A stretch of DNA of 5,843 nt from a bacterium (GCA_025774865.1 JALGZO010000565.1:1-5843), one strand, 5' to 3'; shown: positions 1 through 5,843, numbered from the stretch's first letter. Notes: generated from the sequence alone by a model not told the origin. Translations and numbers: made by a program.

Positions 1-533
1 CCGGTTCCTCGCCGATCGCACATCCCGTCGACCGCCAAGAACGTCGCCGGCACCCACGGCATCGCGCAGAGATTCGACAGATGACCCGCCCGGATGTGCA
101 TGAGGTGCGGCGCGCCCAGCATGAGGGTCGCGCCGGCGAAGACGCACGCCGCCGGATGGAGCCCTCGCCGCGCGACCCACAAGTACGTGAACATCCCGGT
201 GAGGAACACGTGGAAGGCGATCCCGGAGTTGATCGCCAAGGGCAGTGGCAGGACGAGGTACGGCAGGTTGAGCGGGTAGAACAGCGCCGACTGGGCGCCC
301 CCGAAGAACGGGGTCCCCGCGAGTACCCAGGGATTCCAGAGCGCGAGGTTTCCCTGGCGAAGCTCGTCGAACCCGAACTTCCGCCAGTGGGCGAAGTACG
401 TCGGGAGATCACCGCTCGGATCCCCCGCGACAAGCCCGTGCCCCGCGAACAGGACGTCGCCGAACAGCGCCCCTACGATCGCGAGCAACGCGGCGACGCC
501 GACGGCGTGGCCGCGCGTCTCGTGACTCGGCAC
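1..533 (-). CDS. YfhO-like polytopic membrane protein, N-terminal part (3' end off window)
   Basis: This open frame of 177 codons starts at GTG and runs off the left edge without a stop. Seen: a short N-terminus, a first membrane segment at about residues 10-30, then an extracytoplasmic-looking loop with Asp38 and Asp42 (GDPSGDLPTY). A motif LWNPW...GTPFFGGAQSALFYPLN follows at about residues 65-89, then further hydrophobic segments near 90-120 and 128-145, and GHLSNL...PWVPATFL near 150-166. The combination of an acidic first loop, LWNP, FYP and GH is what I know from YfhO-family and related GT-C-fold membrane glycosyltransferases, which use lipid-linked sugar donors at the outer face of the membrane; those proteins are usually much longer, so most of the gene is missing here. 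The GTG is chosen because a strong GGAGG lies six bases upstream and no alternative start is seen upstream. Donor and acceptor cannot be told. The family call is fairly likely, the enzymatic role tentative. Confidence 0.72.
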   Translation of the reverse strand, partial: MPSHETRGHAVGVAALLAIVGALFGDVLFAGHGLVAGDPSGDLPTYFAHWRKFGFDELRQGNLALWNPWVLAGTPFFGGAQSALFYPLNLPYLVLPLPLAINSGIAFHVFLTGMFTYLWVARRGLHPAACVFAGATLMLGAPHLMHIRAGHLSNLCAMPWVPATFLAVDGMCDRRGT

Positions 534-539
534 GGGTCT

Positions 540-544
540 CCTCC
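540..544 (-). promoter_or_regulatory. Shine-Dalgarno site GGAGG for the YfhO-like gene
   Basis: The minus strand reads GGGAGGAGACCC directly before the GTG at 533-531. GGAGG lies six bases from the start codon, an ideal spacing. It fixes the start of a gene that has no ATG there. It also lies only about eight bases past the T-run of the upstream hairpin, so any transcript starting after that hairpin would have a very short leader. Confidence 0.7.
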
Positions 545-552
545 CGAGACCG

Positions 553-578
553 AAAAGCCCTCGGCAAAGCCGAGGGCT
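553..578 (-). terminator. Intrinsic terminator downstream of tRNA-Asp
   Basis: A perfect 10-base inverted repeat AGCCCTCGGC / GCCGAGGGCT is separated by three bases (569-578 and 556-565). On the minus strand it is followed by a run of T (four counting the last stem base), then CGG. It begins six bases after the CCA end of the tRNA, so it most simply ends the tRNA transcript. The T-run is short, so some read-through into the membrane-protein gene is possible. On the plus strand the stem is not followed by a T-run, so the minus direction is preferred. Confidence 0.8.
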
Positions 579-584
579 GAAGAA

Positions 585-661
585 TGGCGGGGTCGACGAG
601 ACTCGAACTCGCGACCTCCGGCGTGACAGGCCGGCGTTCTGACCAACTGAACTACGACCCC
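585..661 (-). tRNA. tRNA-Asp (anticodon GTC)
   Basis: The 77-base cloverleaf was read by hand on the minus strand. The acceptor stem GGGGTCG pairs perfectly with CGACCCC. The D-arm is GTTC/GAAC around AGTTGGTCA. The anticodon stem CCGGC/GCCGG encloses the loop CTGTCAC, giving anticodon GTC for aspartate. The variable region is AGGTC, and the T-arm GCGAG/CTCGT encloses TTCGAGT. The discriminator base is G, as expected for tRNA-Asp, and the 3' CCA is encoded in the DNA (585-587). All arms pair, with one G-T wobble in the T-stem, so the gene looks functional. It has its own candidate promoter upstream and a terminator downstream. Confidence 0.97.
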
Positions 662-673
662 GCCTCTTCCGGT

Positions 674-690
674 GCGGACCGAAGGTCCGC
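674..690 (-). other. Short perfect hairpin in the tRNA leader / spoIID trailer
   Basis: GCGGACC and GGTCCGC form a 7-base perfect stem around a three-base loop (TTC on the minus strand). Neither strand has a T-run after the stem, so it is not a standard intrinsic terminator. It ends 12 bases before the mature 5' end of the tRNA. It could help process the tRNA leader or protect the 3' end of the upstream mRNA. The strand and role are not determined by the sequence. Confidence 0.4.
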
Positions 691-691
691 G

Positions 692-719
692 AAAAGCCGG
701 CCGAAGATACCACCCCGGC
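692..719 (-). terminator. Possible weak terminator of the murQ-spoIID operon
   Basis: On the minus strand GCCGG (719-715) can pair with CCGGC (700-696), followed at once by TTTT (695-692). The stem is only five base pairs and the loop is 14 bases, so this is a marginal candidate. It lies about 20 bases after the spoIID stop codon, where an operon terminator would be expected, but it overlaps the candidate tRNA promoter. The same bases may serve only one of the two roles. Confidence 0.25.
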
Positions 720-732
720 CCGTGGTTCACAA
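704..732 (-). promoter_or_regulatory. Candidate sigma70-type promoter for tRNA-Asp
   Basis: On the minus strand TTGTGA (732-727) and TATCTT (709-704) are separated by exactly 17 bases. Each hexamer matches four of six positions of the -35 and -10 consensus. Transcription would start near position 697, giving a leader of roughly 35 bases before the mature tRNA. The site sits directly after the spoIID stop, where a separate tRNA promoter would be expected. In an unknown high-GC organism the consensus may differ. Confidence 0.4.
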
Positions 733-737
733 GGACC

Positions 738-2072
738 TCAGGCGCCGGCGTCCCGACCCGGTGGCAGATCGCCCGAGCGGAGCGGCCGGACCCGCGCCCC
801 CGGGTAGTAGGCCCGGAGGATCTCCCACCAGGCCTGTCCGGCTTCGGCCCGGCCGAGCGCGCCGACCTGGCACATCCCCACCCCGTGCCCGTTGCCCCGG
901 CCCTCGGCGACCACCTCGACGACCCTGCCGCCCTCCCGGCGCACGTTCAGCTCGACGAGAACGCTCCGGAGAATCGAGCCGTCGGACCGGCGCAGGATCC
1001 AGCGGTTCCGATCGCCCGGGACCCGAAAACTGCTGCTCTCGGTCCGGTACTCGAGAATGGCGATTCGCCCCGACGGTCCCCGCTTAACGACCTTCAGATC
1101 GACGAGCTCCCCCTGCACGGACCCCGGCGGCAGCTCCAGAACGACCCCCAGGTGCTTCCGCACGAGCGCGGAGAGCTCCGCCCCGCTCCAGCTCTCTCGC
1201 CATTCGAAGTGGCGCGAGCTTCGGCACCATTCGCGCCCGCGCGACCCGTCGGACCCTCCGCGCAGAGCGCCGTTGACCTCCCGGTGCGGCCACACCGCGG
1301 CGATGTCGCTTCGACGCCCGCCGCAGGTCGACGAATAGAACGCCTCGACGAGCCCGTCCCGGTCCGCGAGCACCATCCCGCGCGTCTTGCGAATGGCTTC
1401 GTCCGCGACCGCGTTCTCCACCTCGATTCCCGCGTACACCTGATCCTGCACGCTCGCGAAGAGGTCGAACGGAAGACTCGTGTATTGCTCGAGCCGCCGG
1501 GCCGTGTAGGTGCGGGCCGCGACCGCCTGCGCCGCCACTGCGTCCAGATCCTCGGCCGGGCGGGGGCCGATCTCCAGAGGGACGACGCCGCGGAGATAGT
1601 CCTCGAGCGGAACCACGTTCACGACGAAGAGGGAATCCTGCCGCGCCGAAATCTCCAGCGAGCCGCGGACCTTCAGGTCTCCGGCACGAAGATGTCGCGA
1701 GCCCCGCGCTTCCACGCGGAGCGGACCCCGCCCCTGCCAGACCGCACTGCCTTCCTCGTCGACGACGTGAAATTCCCCATCGGCGTCGCCGGCGACCAAA
1801 GTGGCGCGGAGTCGGGAGCCATCGAGAGAGGACGATCTCGAAGAGCTCAGAACGAACGAACCGTCCGAGCCGAACGTGAACTCGCGTCCTTCCCAGTGGA
1901 GACCGATTCGGACCGGGATCTCCGGTCCCACGTCGCGACTTTCGTCCTCCTCGGGGATTCGCTCGGCCGGCGGCGGAGCCGGAACGTGACGCGGGGGACC
2001 GCCCGCGCAGCCGGACGCCACGACCGCGGTCACGACGGCGACGACGGCTCGGCCCCCGAACCGCCGCGTCAC
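738..2072 (-). CDS. SpoIID/LytB-domain lytic transglycosylase, predicted lipoprotein
   Basis: The 444-residue protein opens with MTRRFGGR, a hydrophobic stretch at 9-20 and ASGC at 19-22, a plausible lipobox with Cys22, then a Pro-rich linker. This suggests a lipid-anchored periplasmic protein. The SpoIID domain follows: VPLEDYLRGVVPLEIGP at about 154-170, AVAAQAVAARTYTARR at 178-193, FYSSTCGG at 245-252, and GNGHGVGMCQVGALGRA at 393-409, ending in EILRAYYPGA. Glu167 lines up with the catalytic Glu of Bacillus SpoIID (Glu88). Family knowledge: SpoIID cleaves glycan strands stripped of stem peptides, leaving 1,6-anhydro-MurNAc ends. The Cys/His-containing segment that precedes QVY in clostridial and Bacillus SpoIID is here ASVQDQVY, so its zinc ligands seem absent. 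The GTG start shares four bases (GTGA) with the anmK stop and lacks a clear ribosome-binding site, suggesting coupled translation. Outside spore-formers such proteins act in division or wall remodelling, so 'SpoIID' need not mean sporulation. Confidence 0.9.
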   Translation of the reverse strand: MTRRFGGRAVVAVVTAVVASGCAGGPPRHVPAPPPAERIPEEDESRDVGPEIPVRIGLHWEGREFTFGSDGSFVLSSSRSSSLDGSRLRATLVAGDADGEFHVVDEEGSAVWQGRGPLRVEARGSRHLRAGDLKVRGSLEISARQDSLFVVNVVPLEDYLRGVVPLEIGPRPAEDLDAVAAQAVAARTYTARRLEQYTSLPFDLFASVQDQVYAGIEVENAVADEAIRKTRGMVLADRDGLVEAFYSSTCGGRRSDIAAVWPHREVNGALRGGSDGSRGREWCRSSRHFEWRESWSGAELSALVRKHLGVVLELPPGSVQGELVDLKVVKRGPSGRIAILEYRTESSSFRVPGDRNRWILRRSDGSILRSVLVELNVRREGGRVVEVVAEGRGNGHGVGMCQVGALGRAEAGQAWWEILRAYYPGARVRPLRSGDLPPGRDAGA

Positions 2073-3256
2073 GCACCGACCGCCGAGGGCGGCACCGTGA
2101 CCGTACCGAGAACCACCGGGCGATCCGCCCCCGTCGCTCCGACGACGTTGCCGGGGCGCCCGGCCACCGTTTCGCGCGCGAGCAACGCGAACGCGAGCGC
2201 CTCCTTCGCGTCGGACGAGAATCCGAACGTTTCCAGCGACGTCACGCGCATCCCGTCGAGCTCCTCGTCGAGACGTTTCATCAGCGTCTTGTTGTGAATG
2301 CCCCCGCCCGACACCAGCACCTCGGTGATCTCCGCCCGCGGCGCGACGTACACCTTGATCGATTCCGTGATCGACAGCGCGGTGAACTCCGTCAACGTGG
2401 CCACGAGATCTTCGAGCCGCTCACCGCCGCGAACCCACTCCCCGAGCGTGAGCGCGACGAAGCCCGCCCCGAACACTTCGCGGCCGGTCGACTTCGGCGG
2501 CTTCTCGTAGAAGTAGGGATGCTCCATGAACCCCGCGAGGAGCTCTTCGTCGACCTTCCCGGAAGCGGCCAGGCGCCCGCCGTCGTCGAACGTCTGGCGG
2601 CCCTTCGTCGCGTGGCGAAGGAACTCGTCGATGAGAACATTGCCGGGGCCGGTGTCGAACGCGAACACGTCGGCGGTGCCCGCGCCCGCGGGCAACACCG
2701 TGAGATTCGCGATACCGCCGATGTTCACCAGGACGCGGCCGCAGTCTTCGCGGCGGAAGACGAGCGCGTCGAACAGGGGCACGAGGGGCGCGCCCTGCCC
2801 GCCGACCGCCATGTCGGCGCGCCGGAAGTCCGAAACGACGACGGCCCCGGTGGCGGCGGCGATCCGTGACGGCTCACCCACCTGCCAGGTCTCGCCACAG
2901 GACGGATCGTGGAAGATCGTCTGTCCGTGAGAGCCGACGAGGTCGAGGTCCGCGACCGTCTTCCCGGCCTCGGAGAGGACTCGCACCGCGGCCTCTCCGA
3001 AGGCGTCGCCGATGGCGTGGTCGAGTCGACTCAGCTCCGGCGCCGTCCGCGAGTCACCTCCCGACACGGCCAGGATCTCGCGGCGGCCATCCTCTCGGTA
3101 CGGAACCGTGATGAAGGCGAGCTGCCGGACCTCGGGGCGCCCGGGCGCTCCCGAGATCTCCGCGAGAACGGCATCGATGCCGTCGACGGACGTTCCCGAG
3201 ATGAGCCCGACGATGGCGAGGGATTGTCCGGCGGCCAGTCGCTCCAACCCGTTCAC
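2069..3256 (-). CDS. anmK: Anhydro-N-acetylmuramic acid kinase
   Basis: Cytoplasmic sugar kinase of the ASKHA fold, 395 residues, full length for the family (about 360-390). It converts 1,6-anhydro-MurNAc, ATP and water to MurNAc-6-phosphate and ADP, opening the anhydro ring while phosphorylating. Visible motifs are IVGLISGTSVDGID (15-28, first phosphate-binding loop), GSHGQT (108-113), SDFRRADMAVGGQGAPLVP (142-160), NIGGIAN (178-184), FDTGPGN (200-206, probably containing the catalytic Asp201), KSTGREVF (255-262), SGGGIHN (316-322) and the C-terminal GRPGNVVGATGA (366-377), a variant of the usual G-PGNLPSVTGA ending. No key motif is missing. The GTG start shares GTGA with the stop of the transporter and has AGGAG five bases upstream. 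Its product is the substrate of MurQ, encoded two genes upstream in the same operon. Confidence 0.96.
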   Translation of the reverse strand: MNGLERLAAGQSLAIVGLISGTSVDGIDAVLAEISGAPGRPEVRQLAFITVPYREDGRREILAVSGGDSRTAPELSRLDHAIGDAFGEAAVRVLSEAGKTVADLDLVGSHGQTIFHDPSCGETWQVGEPSRIAAATGAVVVSDFRRADMAVGGQGAPLVPLFDALVFRREDCGRVLVNIGGIANLTVLPAGAGTADVFAFDTGPGNVLIDEFLRHATKGRQTFDDGGRLAASGKVDEELLAGFMEHPYFYEKPPKSTGREVFGAGFVALTLGEWVRGGERLEDLVATLTEFTALSITESIKVYVAPRAEITEVLVSGGGIHNKTLMKRLDEELDGMRVTSLETFGFSSDAKEALAFALLARETVAGRPGNVVGATGADRPVVLGTVTVPPSAVGA

Positions 3257-5055
3257 GCGCTCTCCTGGCGATCCTCGTCGGATCGCGACGCTTCTTCCCC
3301 GCCCAGACGGCTCGCTCTCGGCACCGCGAAGATCGTGGCCAAGACTCCGGTGACGGTCAAGGGAATGCCGACGGCAAGGTCACCCAGCACGAGCTTGCCG
3401 AAGCCGAAGAGACATCCGTAGAGGCCGACTACCGAGACGAGCCAGAGGACCAAGCGGCCCCGGATCCCGGCGGCCGCGGCGGGTTCGGACGAGCCCGCCC
3501 CTCCCCAGGCGCCGAGCGGCCGCACCCGTCGGACGAACTCCCTGAGGTGGCGCGGATCATCCGGTGCCGTTCGGAGCGCGACCGTCACCCAGACCACCGC
3601 CGACACGGCCACGTTGATGACGAAGATCTCGTACGAAGCGAACTCGTGGGTGGTCCATCCGAGTTTGCCGGCGTTTCTCAAGAACATCGCGACGACGAAC
3701 GAAGCGATCATCGCGGAGAGCTCGCTCCAGGCGTTGATGCGCCACCAGAACCAGCGAACGAGGAACACGGCCCCCGCTCCGGCCACGAGCTGAAGCAAGA
3801 GCTCGAAGAGGCCGCGGATCGAATCGGCCCAGAGTCCGATCGCCCCGCCCAGGATCAGGAAGAAGATCCCGGAGAGACGGGCCACGAGCACGCCTTCGCG
3901 GTTTCCGATCTCGCCCCCGCGCAACGGGGTCCACAGATCCACGACGAAGTACGAGCTCGCGAGATTCATGTGCGTGTCGATCGTCGACATGAATGCCGCG
4001 AGCATGGCGGCGAGCATGAGCCCGAGCCACCCGGGACCGAGGAACTCCCGCATCATCATCGGATAGGCAGCTTTGTGGTCGGTGAGCTCCGGAAAGACCA
4101 GGAGCGACAGGAGGGCCACGACGAACCACGGCCACGGGCGCAACACGTAGTTCGCGAACGTGAACCAGAGCATCGCGAGCGTCGAGTCACGCTCGGTGCG
4201 GCAGGCGCTCATGCGCTGGATGAGGACGCCGCCACCGTCGGAGTACTTCCACGACCACCACTGCACGACGACCGCGACGGCGAAGCCCCAGAACGCGGCC
4301 TCCAGCGCAGGTCCGCCGAAGGGAGTCACTTCGGCCGCCGGGCGACCATTTGCGGCGAGCACCTCGCGCAGACGTGGAGCGACGGCGGCGAGCCCGCCGT
4401 GCGCCGCGAGCGCCTTGAACACGAGTACCACCGATCCGATCATCGCCACGCTGAACTGGAGGAGATCCGTGACGACGACTCCCCACAGTCCCGAGAGCGC
4501 GGCGTAAACGACGGCGATCGAGCATCCCACCCCGATCGCGAGCGCCTTCGACGACCAGTCGGCGCCGAGGAACCGGATCGTCTCGGGGAGTCCGAAGACC
4601 TCCACGATGATCGTCGACATCGCGAGGATCACCCAACCCATCACGACCGAGTTCGTGACGAAAGCGTAGAACGCGCCCTTGAACGTCCGCAGAACCGAAG
4701 CGGCCCGCCCCGAGTAGCGCAGCGCGATGAACTCCACGTCGGTGGTGACGCGCGCCCGCCGCCACAGCCCGGCCAGAAAGAACGTCGTGAGGAGGTGTGA
4801 GATCGCGAAGTTGAACCAGATCCAGTTCGATCCGATGCCGCCGGTGCGCACGTAACTCGTGACGACGAGCGGAGTGTCGGCCGCGAACGTCGTTGCGACC
4901 ATCGAGGTACCGGCGATCCACCAGGGAAGCGACCGGCCGGTGAGGAGGAAGTCGCCGAGGCTCCGTGACGCTCGGCCCGACAGCGCGAAGCCGATTCCGA
5001 GCATGAGACCCAGGTAGACGAGGAGGATGAACCAGTCGACGGGCGCCAGGTTCAA
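3253..5055 (-). CDS. Sodium:solute symporter (SSS) family transporter, candidate muropeptide-sugar importer
   Basis: The 600-residue polytopic protein has roughly 13-15 membrane segments. Seen: TM1 at about 7-26, an RSLPWWIAGTSMVATTFAAD segment (41-60), the family signature region ALSGLWGVVVTDLLQF (186-201), and FMSTIDTHMNLASSYFVVDLW (355-375). In that last segment Ser357 and Thr358 match the Ser/Thr pair that binds sodium at the Na2 site of PutP and vSGLT. A charged linker near 498-530 precedes one or two extra C-terminal helices (535-577) and a hydrophilic tail. This is inner-membrane Na+-coupled uptake. The substrate cannot be read from sequence, but the position between murQ and anmK makes anhydro-MurNAc, MurNAc or a small muropeptide the best guess. 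The TTG start shares TTGA with the murQ stop and has GGAG eight bases upstream; the next Met is residue 18, inside TM1, so TTG is preferred. Confidence 0.93.
   Translation of the reverse strand: MNLAPVDWFILLVYLGLMLGIGFALSGRASRSLGDFLLTGRSLPWWIAGTSMVATTFAADTPLVVTSYVRTGGIGSNWIWFNFAISHLLTTFFLAGLWRRARVTTDVEFIALRYSGRAASVLRTFKGAFYAFVTNSVVMGWVILAMSTIIVEVFGLPETIRFLGADWSSKALAIGVGCSIAVVYAALSGLWGVVVTDLLQFSVAMIGSVVLVFKALAAHGGLAAVAPRLREVLAANGRPAAEVTPFGGPALEAAFWGFAVAVVVQWWSWKYSDGGGVLIQRMSACRTERDSTLAMLWFTFANYVLRPWPWFVVALLSLLVFPELTDHKAAYPMMMREFLGPGWLGLMLAAMLAAFMSTIDTHMNLASSYFVVDLWTPLRGGEIGNREGVLVARLSGIFFLILGGAIGLWADSIRGLFELLLQLVAGAGAVFLVRWFWWRINAWSELSAMIASFVVAMFLRNAGKLGWTTHEFASYEIFVINVAVSAVVWVTVALRTAPDDPRHLREFVRRVRPLGAWGGAGSSEPAAAAGIRGRLVLWLVSVVGLYGCLFGFGKLVLGDLAVGIPLTVTGVLATIFAVPRASRLGGEEASRSDEDRQESA
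3262..3266 (-). promoter_or_regulatory. Shine-Dalgarno site AGGAG for anmK
   Basis: AGGAG lies five bases upstream of the GTG start of anmK, inside the last codons of the transporter gene. It supports the GTG as start, and so the 4-base overlap, rather than any later codon. Confidence 0.65.
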
Positions 5056-5843
5056 GCCGGATGCTCCAGCGCGCGGCGCACGAAACCGTCAGTCTCGGCC
5101 AGGAGTCTCTCCGCTTCCGCGGCGTTGCATCCGCGGCGGCCCATGACGATCGCCGTCTTCACCTTCCCCCCACTCTCGTCCAGAAGCCGGACGGACGTCT
5201 CGTAGTCGCAGTCGACGACGCGCATGACGATTCGTCGGCTCCGTTCCACGAGCTTCGCGCTGCCCGCGCGCAGGTCGATCATGAGGTTCCCGAGCGTCTT
5301 GCCCCGCCGGATCATCGAGGCGGTCGTGATCATGTTCAGAACGAGCTTCTGAGCCGTTCCCGCTTTCATCCGCGTGGAGCCGGCGACGACCTCGGGGCCG
5401 ACCACGGGTGCGATGACGACTTCAGCCGCGGATTCCTCGTCCCCGGCCGGATTGCACGTGACGAGCGCCGTGAAGGCTCCGATCTTCCGGGCGCGGTCGA
5501 GGGCGCCGCGGACGTACGGGGTGCGCCGACTCGCGGCGATTCCCACGACGGAGTCGGCCGCCGTGACGGCCTGCTCTTCGACGGCGCGGGCTCCGGCTCC
5601 GGAATCGTCTTCGGCACCTTCCTGGGCCCGGAACATACTTTCCTTCCCCCCGGCGATGACTCCGATCACCTCGGAAGGGTCGGTTCCGAACGTCGGCGGG
5701 CATTCGGCCGCATCGAGGATACCGAGGCGCCCGGAGGTGCCGGCCCCCACGTAGACGAGGCGCCCCCCCCGCCGGAAGCTCTCCGTGACCGCGTCGACGA
5801 CCCGAGCGATCTCCGGCAGGCACTCGGCGACGGCCGGCGCGAC
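5052..5843 (-). CDS. murQ: N-acetylmuramic acid 6-phosphate etherase, N-terminus off window
   Basis: Open from the right edge to TGA, 263 residues visible of a family length near 300, so roughly 35-45 N-terminal residues are missing. This is a cytoplasmic SIS-domain enzyme that splits MurNAc-6-phosphate into GlcNAc-6-phosphate and D-lactate. Visible motifs are VGAGTSGRLGILDAAECPPT just after the edge, then EGAEDD, GIAASRRTPYVRGAL, AGSTRMKAGTAQKLVLNM and NLMIDLRAGSAKL. The last part is the C-terminal helical region with CNAAEAERLL. The Glu at 5703-5705 (in AECPPT) and the Glu at 5619-5621 (in EGAED) match the two acid/base glutamates known as Glu83 and Glu114 in E. coli MurQ. A methionine-type GTG at 5750 is internal: the frame continues upstream with conserved GGRLVY, so it is not the start. 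It is the first visible gene of the operon and its stop overlaps the transporter start. Confidence 0.97.
   Translation of the reverse strand, partial: VAPAVAECLPEIARVVDAVTESFRRGGRLVYVGAGTSGRLGILDAAECPPTFGTDPSEVIGVIAGGKESMFRAQEGAEDDSGAGARAVEEQAVTAADSVVGIAASRRTPYVRGALDRARKIGAFTALVTCNPAGDEESAAEVVIAPVVGPEVVAGSTRMKAGTAQKLVLNMITTASMIRRGKTLGNLMIDLRAGSAKLVERSRRIVMRVVDCDYETSVRLLDESGGKVKTAIVMGRRGCNAAEAERLLAETDGFVRRALEHPA
5064..5067 (-). promoter_or_regulatory. Shine-Dalgarno site GGAG for the SSS transporter
   Basis: GGAG lies eight bases upstream of the TTG codon at 5055-5053, within the end of murQ. It is the main reason for accepting TTG as start, together with the need to keep the first membrane segment whole. 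Confidence 0.6.

Follow-up and report, generated by a model that had tools for sequence, protein, structure and literature searches.

Linked spoIID and anmK genes in a barely sampled bacterial phylum: a probable form of cell-wall glycan recycling

Described systems closest to the locus

Models of peptidoglycan recycling come mostly from Proteobacteria and Bacilli, in which the genes for the transglycosylases that cut the wall lie away from those for recycling. In the AmpG-NagZ-AmpD-AnmK-MurQ pathway of E. coli the AnmK and MurQ steps are identical to those predicted here, the recycling genes are scattered, and we know of no lytic transglycosylase that shares an operon with them in that species. 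The LytB protein of T. forsythia presumably carries a SpoIID domain. Its gene (annotated as an amidase enhancer precursor) was verified by RT-PCR on a single transcript with ampG, ybbC, murT, murK and murQ (Tanf_08345-08385; PMC5388701), and no AnmK ortholog is predicted for the genome (PMC7670621). That operon resembles the one analyzed here, carried on a 5,843-nucleotide stretch of DNA (the window), in bringing together a SpoIID/LytB-type gene, importers, a MurNAc kinase and MurQ. It differs in its kinase (MurK, acting on MurNAc), its importers (AmpG and MurT) and its NamZ-type ybbC, whereas the window encodes AnmK and a sodium:solute symporter (SSS); assignment of the window to the murTKQ type was rejected on the kinase and the importer.

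The murQ-murR-murP-amiE-nagZ-ybbC cluster of B. subtilis likewise couples a catabolic MurQ route to an importer, but the importer is the PTS protein MurP, there is neither AnmK nor SpoIID, and AmiE and NagZ work extracellularly (PMC5061867). In the SpoIIP-SpoIID engulfment pair of C. difficile and B. subtilis, an amidase denudes the glycan strands and SpoIID cuts them (PMC6221140); in contrast, the neighborhood of the window has no spore context, and its SpoIID lipoprotein appears to be tied to uptake and breakdown of what it releases. No paper joining SpoIID with AnmK by full name was returned by a literature search from whose scope subscription papers mostly fell, so that an earlier description is possible; queries for SpoIID and recycling returned chlamydial and other contexts. 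The preliminary description of the locus, which named no described system of this composition, went too far: the T. forsythia lytB/ampG/ybbC/murTKQ operon precedes it, without AnmK (PMC5388701).

Gene set of the window and its conservation in the phylum

The window comprises all of contig 569 in the 4.7 Mb draft genome of a bacterium from a barely sampled phylum, so that no sequence past position 5843 can be added. Four genes follow one another on the minus strand in the order murQ, symporter, anmK and a SpoIID-family lipoprotein gene, joined by three 4-base overlaps (Table 1), and the open frames and family scores bear out this arrangement as first proposed. Co-transcription is likely from the overlaps. 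No promoter- or terminator-like sites were found in positions 560-5843, and the operon start lies outside the window. A tRNA gene lies just downstream of spoIID on the operon strand, and beyond it begins a membrane-protein-like frame without a Pfam or NCBIfam match.

Table 1. Features of the window, with coordinates counted from its first nucleotide
Feature	Coordinates	Strand	Length and start	Family, profile or structure
murQ, N-acetylmuramic acid 6-phosphate etherase	5052..5843, open at 5843	-	263 aa, 5' end cut by contig end	TIGR00274, PRK05441, 4s12
Sodium:solute symporter (SSS/SSF), probable wall-sugar importer	3253..5055	-	600 aa, TTG start	PF00474
anmK, anhydro-N-acetylmuramic acid kinase	2069..3256	-	395 aa, GTG start	PF03702, NF007148, 3cqy
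SpoIID/LytB-family lipoprotein, probable lytic transglycosylase	738..2072	-	444 aa, GTG start	TIGR02669, lipobox, Glu167
Overlap TTGA, murQ stop / symporter start	5052..5055	-	4 bases	
Overlap GTGA, symporter stop / anmK start	3253..3256	-	4 bases	
Overlap GTGA, anmK stop / spoIID start	2069..2072	-	4 bases	
tRNA-Asp(gtc)	585..661	-		
Start of membrane-protein-like frame	3..584	-		

Conservation was assessed in five genomes of the phylum (G000-G004, 67-100% complete). The full murQ-SSS-anmK-spoIID set occurs in the same order in two other genera (G002 and G003), and in a third (G004) murQ-SSS-anmK runs up to the contig end; neither anmK nor spoIID was found in G001, which is 67% complete. AnmK and MurQ were thus present in 4 of the 5 genomes. 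As the genes of G002 and G003 match it in order and strand, and their proteins are 53-77% identical, the four-gene arrangement is not a product of chance. The assembly carries 8.3% estimated contamination, and the contig itself is unlikely to be a contaminant because three further genera within its family also carry murQ, symporter and anmK genes.

The MurQ frame reached the equivalog cut-off despite its truncation (TIGR00274, 322.9 bits against 302) and matched PRK05441 (3e-108) over model positions 37-297, which places about 36 N-terminal residues beyond the contig end; it also matched the solved structure 4s12 (E 5e-72). AnmK was assigned by PF03702 (1.9e-103, 346.8 bits) and by the equivalog NF007148 (454 bits, cut-off 387), the FDTGPGN motif is retained, and its best solved-structure match is the AnmK 3cqy (4e-71), with a small lead over levoglucosan kinases. 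The symporter belongs to the SSS family by its SSF domain (PF00474, 3.7e-22, 79.2 bits, cut-off 22.8), and its score against the TIGR00813 model was under the cut-off. A second SSS symporter, 39% identical to it, is encoded elsewhere in the genome (L149:3740-5554, G000:C244).

Judged from its family and its neighbors, the symporter is probably the importer of a wall sugar. It could instead carry another solute, MurNAc fragments entering by an AmpG-type permease encoded elsewhere; SSS transporters move many solutes, and the matches to sodium/sugar cotransporters reflect remote similarity (best E 5e-17). We consider this unlikely, as four genera retain the symporter gene between murQ and anmK, and in the linked operons of G195 and G268 that place is taken by an importer of the ABC sugar type.

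The fourth protein falls in the SpoIID/LytB family (TIGR02669, 1.8e-46, 159.3 bits, cut-off 83.3; PF08486, 1.6e-18) and has a lipoprotein signal whose lipobox ends in ASGC. It is a SpoIID-family protein and not the sporulation SpoIID proper, which was ruled out at 81.5 bits against the TIGR02870 equivalog cut-off of 234.75. Glu167 is invariant in the alignment and pairs with Glu101, the catalytic residue of the C. difficile SpoIID; that enzyme works only after amidase action and then frees disaccharides (PMC6221140). On these grounds the window protein probably cuts cell-wall glycan as a lytic transglycosylase. The SpoIID of Waddlia shows muramidase behavior on denuded strands (PMC6635528); action of that type would give non-anhydro sugars with no need of AnmK, and counts against the route proposed below.

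Linkage of spoIID and anmK across genomes

A PF03702 search found AnmK in 124 of 386 genomes. Eighty of these, mostly one per family, were then searched with PF08486, and SpoIID was present in 52. Of the 52 genomes with both genes, 16 had SpoIID no more than 5 kb from AnmK, as did 12 of 48 families (G000/G002/G003; G013; G159; G028/G173/G303; G115; G174; G103; G268; G290; G195; G273; G208), whereas random placement expects 0.22 linked genomes and none of 200,000 simulations gave more than 4. The two genes are on the same strand in 15 of the 16 linked genomes; the exception is G208, with spoIID oriented divergently from murQ-anmK. Rare adjacency of the pair would have spoken against the grouping of spoIID with anmK and MurNAc catabolism in the preliminary description; the counts uphold that grouping. 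Two observations weigh against it: the genes lie apart in the majority (36) of the 52 genomes, and among 80 named AnmK loci, mostly of Paenibacillus (L064-L143), no SpoIID was found nearby by tblastn and two SpoIID profiles. AnmK in Paenibacillus and relatives is often near nagZ, namZ and murQ.

Architectures of the linked operons varied around anmK and spoIID. G115 has anmK-spoIID, and in G174 this pair is preceded by murQ across a gap of about 1.1 kb; nagZ-anmK-spoIID was found in G013, G159 and G290, SSS-anmK-spoIID-nagZ in G103, and ABC importers were included in G268 (SBP-MalF-MalG-anmK-spoIID-nagZ) and G195 (murQ-SBP-MalF-MalG-anmK-spoIID). In G273 (L175:6204-8069) MurQ bears a kinase domain of the BcrAD/BadFG type at its N-terminus, as a fusion, and spoIID and anmK follow. 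The fullest form, SBP-MalF-MalG-spoIID-namZ-nagZ-anmK-amidase (Amidase_3), was seen in the one family of G028, G173 and G303 (L148:3071-14353, L177:179-11367, L178:8-11542), the G028 amidase having two Amidase_3 domains. This family resembles the B. subtilis cluster in carrying an amidase, NagZ and NamZ within the operon (PMC5061867). As in the engulfment pair, an amidase goes with SpoIID, here a likely lipoprotein encoded beside it in the operon. NagZ and an amidase, predicted earlier as the missing partners of the window genes, are therefore found inside linked operons of other lineages, the amidase in one family.

That SSS and ABC importers replace each other while the anmK-spoIID core stays stable suggests that the importer carries the sugar of the operon. 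The N-terminus of NagZ was not strongly hydrophobic in 6 of the 7 linked operons checked, and in the G028 family NagZ and NamZ look cytoplasmic while the amidases, like the SpoIID, look like lipoproteins, which together point to import of a disaccharide.

SpoIID might instead be a septal or general wall remodeler that merely shares a promoter, its product not being the substrate of the operon. A septal SpoIID is described from a chlamydial bacterium (PMC6635528), the distance from SpoIID to AnmK is large in 36 of the 52 genomes with both, and unlinked SpoIIDs have the same catalytic residues. That explanation is improbable in our judgment, as the importer type changes while the anmK-spoIID pair is conserved, and the linked SpoIIDs cluster on the maximum-likelihood tree, needing 6 label changes where shuffled labels averaged 12.7 and not one shuffle in 500 came that low. 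Twelve linked proteins fall in one group of 17 and four in a second clade; with linked SpoIIDs in two parts of the tree, a single origin of the linkage is unsupported. A strict lipobox was present in 13 of 16 AnmK-linked SpoIIDs and a near lipobox in the other 3, compared with 6 of 26 unlinked SpoIIDs, a non-random sample drawn from the proteins that matched the window SpoIID best. Three cysteines (C250, C283, C401) were rejected as a mark of linked SpoIIDs, being common in unlinked ones too.

With similar gene sets in eleven other families, the linkage of SpoIID to AnmK probably represents a genuine kind of cell-wall recycling that has been little described.

Predicted route and the missing glucosaminidase

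From the gene content and order, the overlaps, the families, the lipoprotein signal, the catalytic glutamate, the conservation in the phylum and the recurrent linkage with importer exchange, we consider it fairly likely that the four genes form one operon for recovery of wall glycan, leading from SpoIID cutting through import to AnmK and MurQ. In the predicted order, an amidase encoded elsewhere would strip the peptides from the glycan strands, and the periplasm-facing SpoIID lipoprotein would cut the denuded strands to GlcNAc-1,6-anhydroMurNAc. The symporter would import the sugar, probably as the disaccharide, and in the cytoplasm a glucosaminidase (operon-encoded in related systems, not found in the phylum) would free anhydroMurNAc. 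AnmK would then convert this to MurNAc-6-phosphate, and MurQ would convert MurNAc-6-phosphate to GlcNAc-6-phosphate and D-lactate.

The operon may feed on the peptidoglycan of dead or neighboring bacteria, perhaps aided by adjacent secreted peptidases, and not on the cell's own wall. Directly upstream and in the same orientation, G002, G003, G103, G268 and G174 encode a C25 (gingipain-like) peptidase whose C-terminus is FlgD_ig (L144:14094-18212, L145:13219-17256, L171:12415-16578, L172:15250-18282 and L170:1-1578), the catabolic MurQ sits in the operon, and the comparable T. forsythia operon serves scavenging (PMC5388701). Scavenging is possible, if somewhat unlikely: the SpoIID is a lipoprotein and not freely secreted, and C25 genes number 5-27 copies in these genomes, the operon-linked copies not forming one clade, so that the tie of the peptidase to the operon is weak.

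The route from wall glycan through the four genes was earlier called self-contained, which does not hold. Neither a glucosaminidase nor an amidase is present in the window operon, which is therefore not a complete wall-glycan recycling operon. Amidase_3 genes are present in the phylum genomes, unlinked to the operon. GH3, GH20, GH73 and NamZ gave no match at E <= 0.001 in the five phylum genomes, in searches that each found their own family in several control genomes; this negative covers four families in drafts of 67-100% completeness, G003 being the one listed at 100%. The step from the SpoIID product to the AnmK substrate is thus left without a known enzyme, which counts against the predicted route. 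The functional link between SpoIID and recycling is better supported than the preliminary description could know, but both "self-contained" and "undescribed" were too strong.

A broader proposal, which we offer tentatively and rate as rather unlikely, is that, within the family of sporulation enzymes, SpoIID lipoproteins are a widespread recycling branch recruited more than once as the dedicated cutting enzyme of anhydroMurNAc operons, and that in this phylum an N-acetylglucosaminidase or phosphorylase from a family so far unconnected with the step cleaves the disaccharide. The glucosaminidase gap across the whole phylum is concrete, and could reveal an unexpected enzyme. Recurrent SpoIID-AnmK operons from poorly sampled lineages would give a role to many SpoIIDs of non-sporulating bacteria, and would provide small gene sets for testing cutting, import and catabolism side by side.
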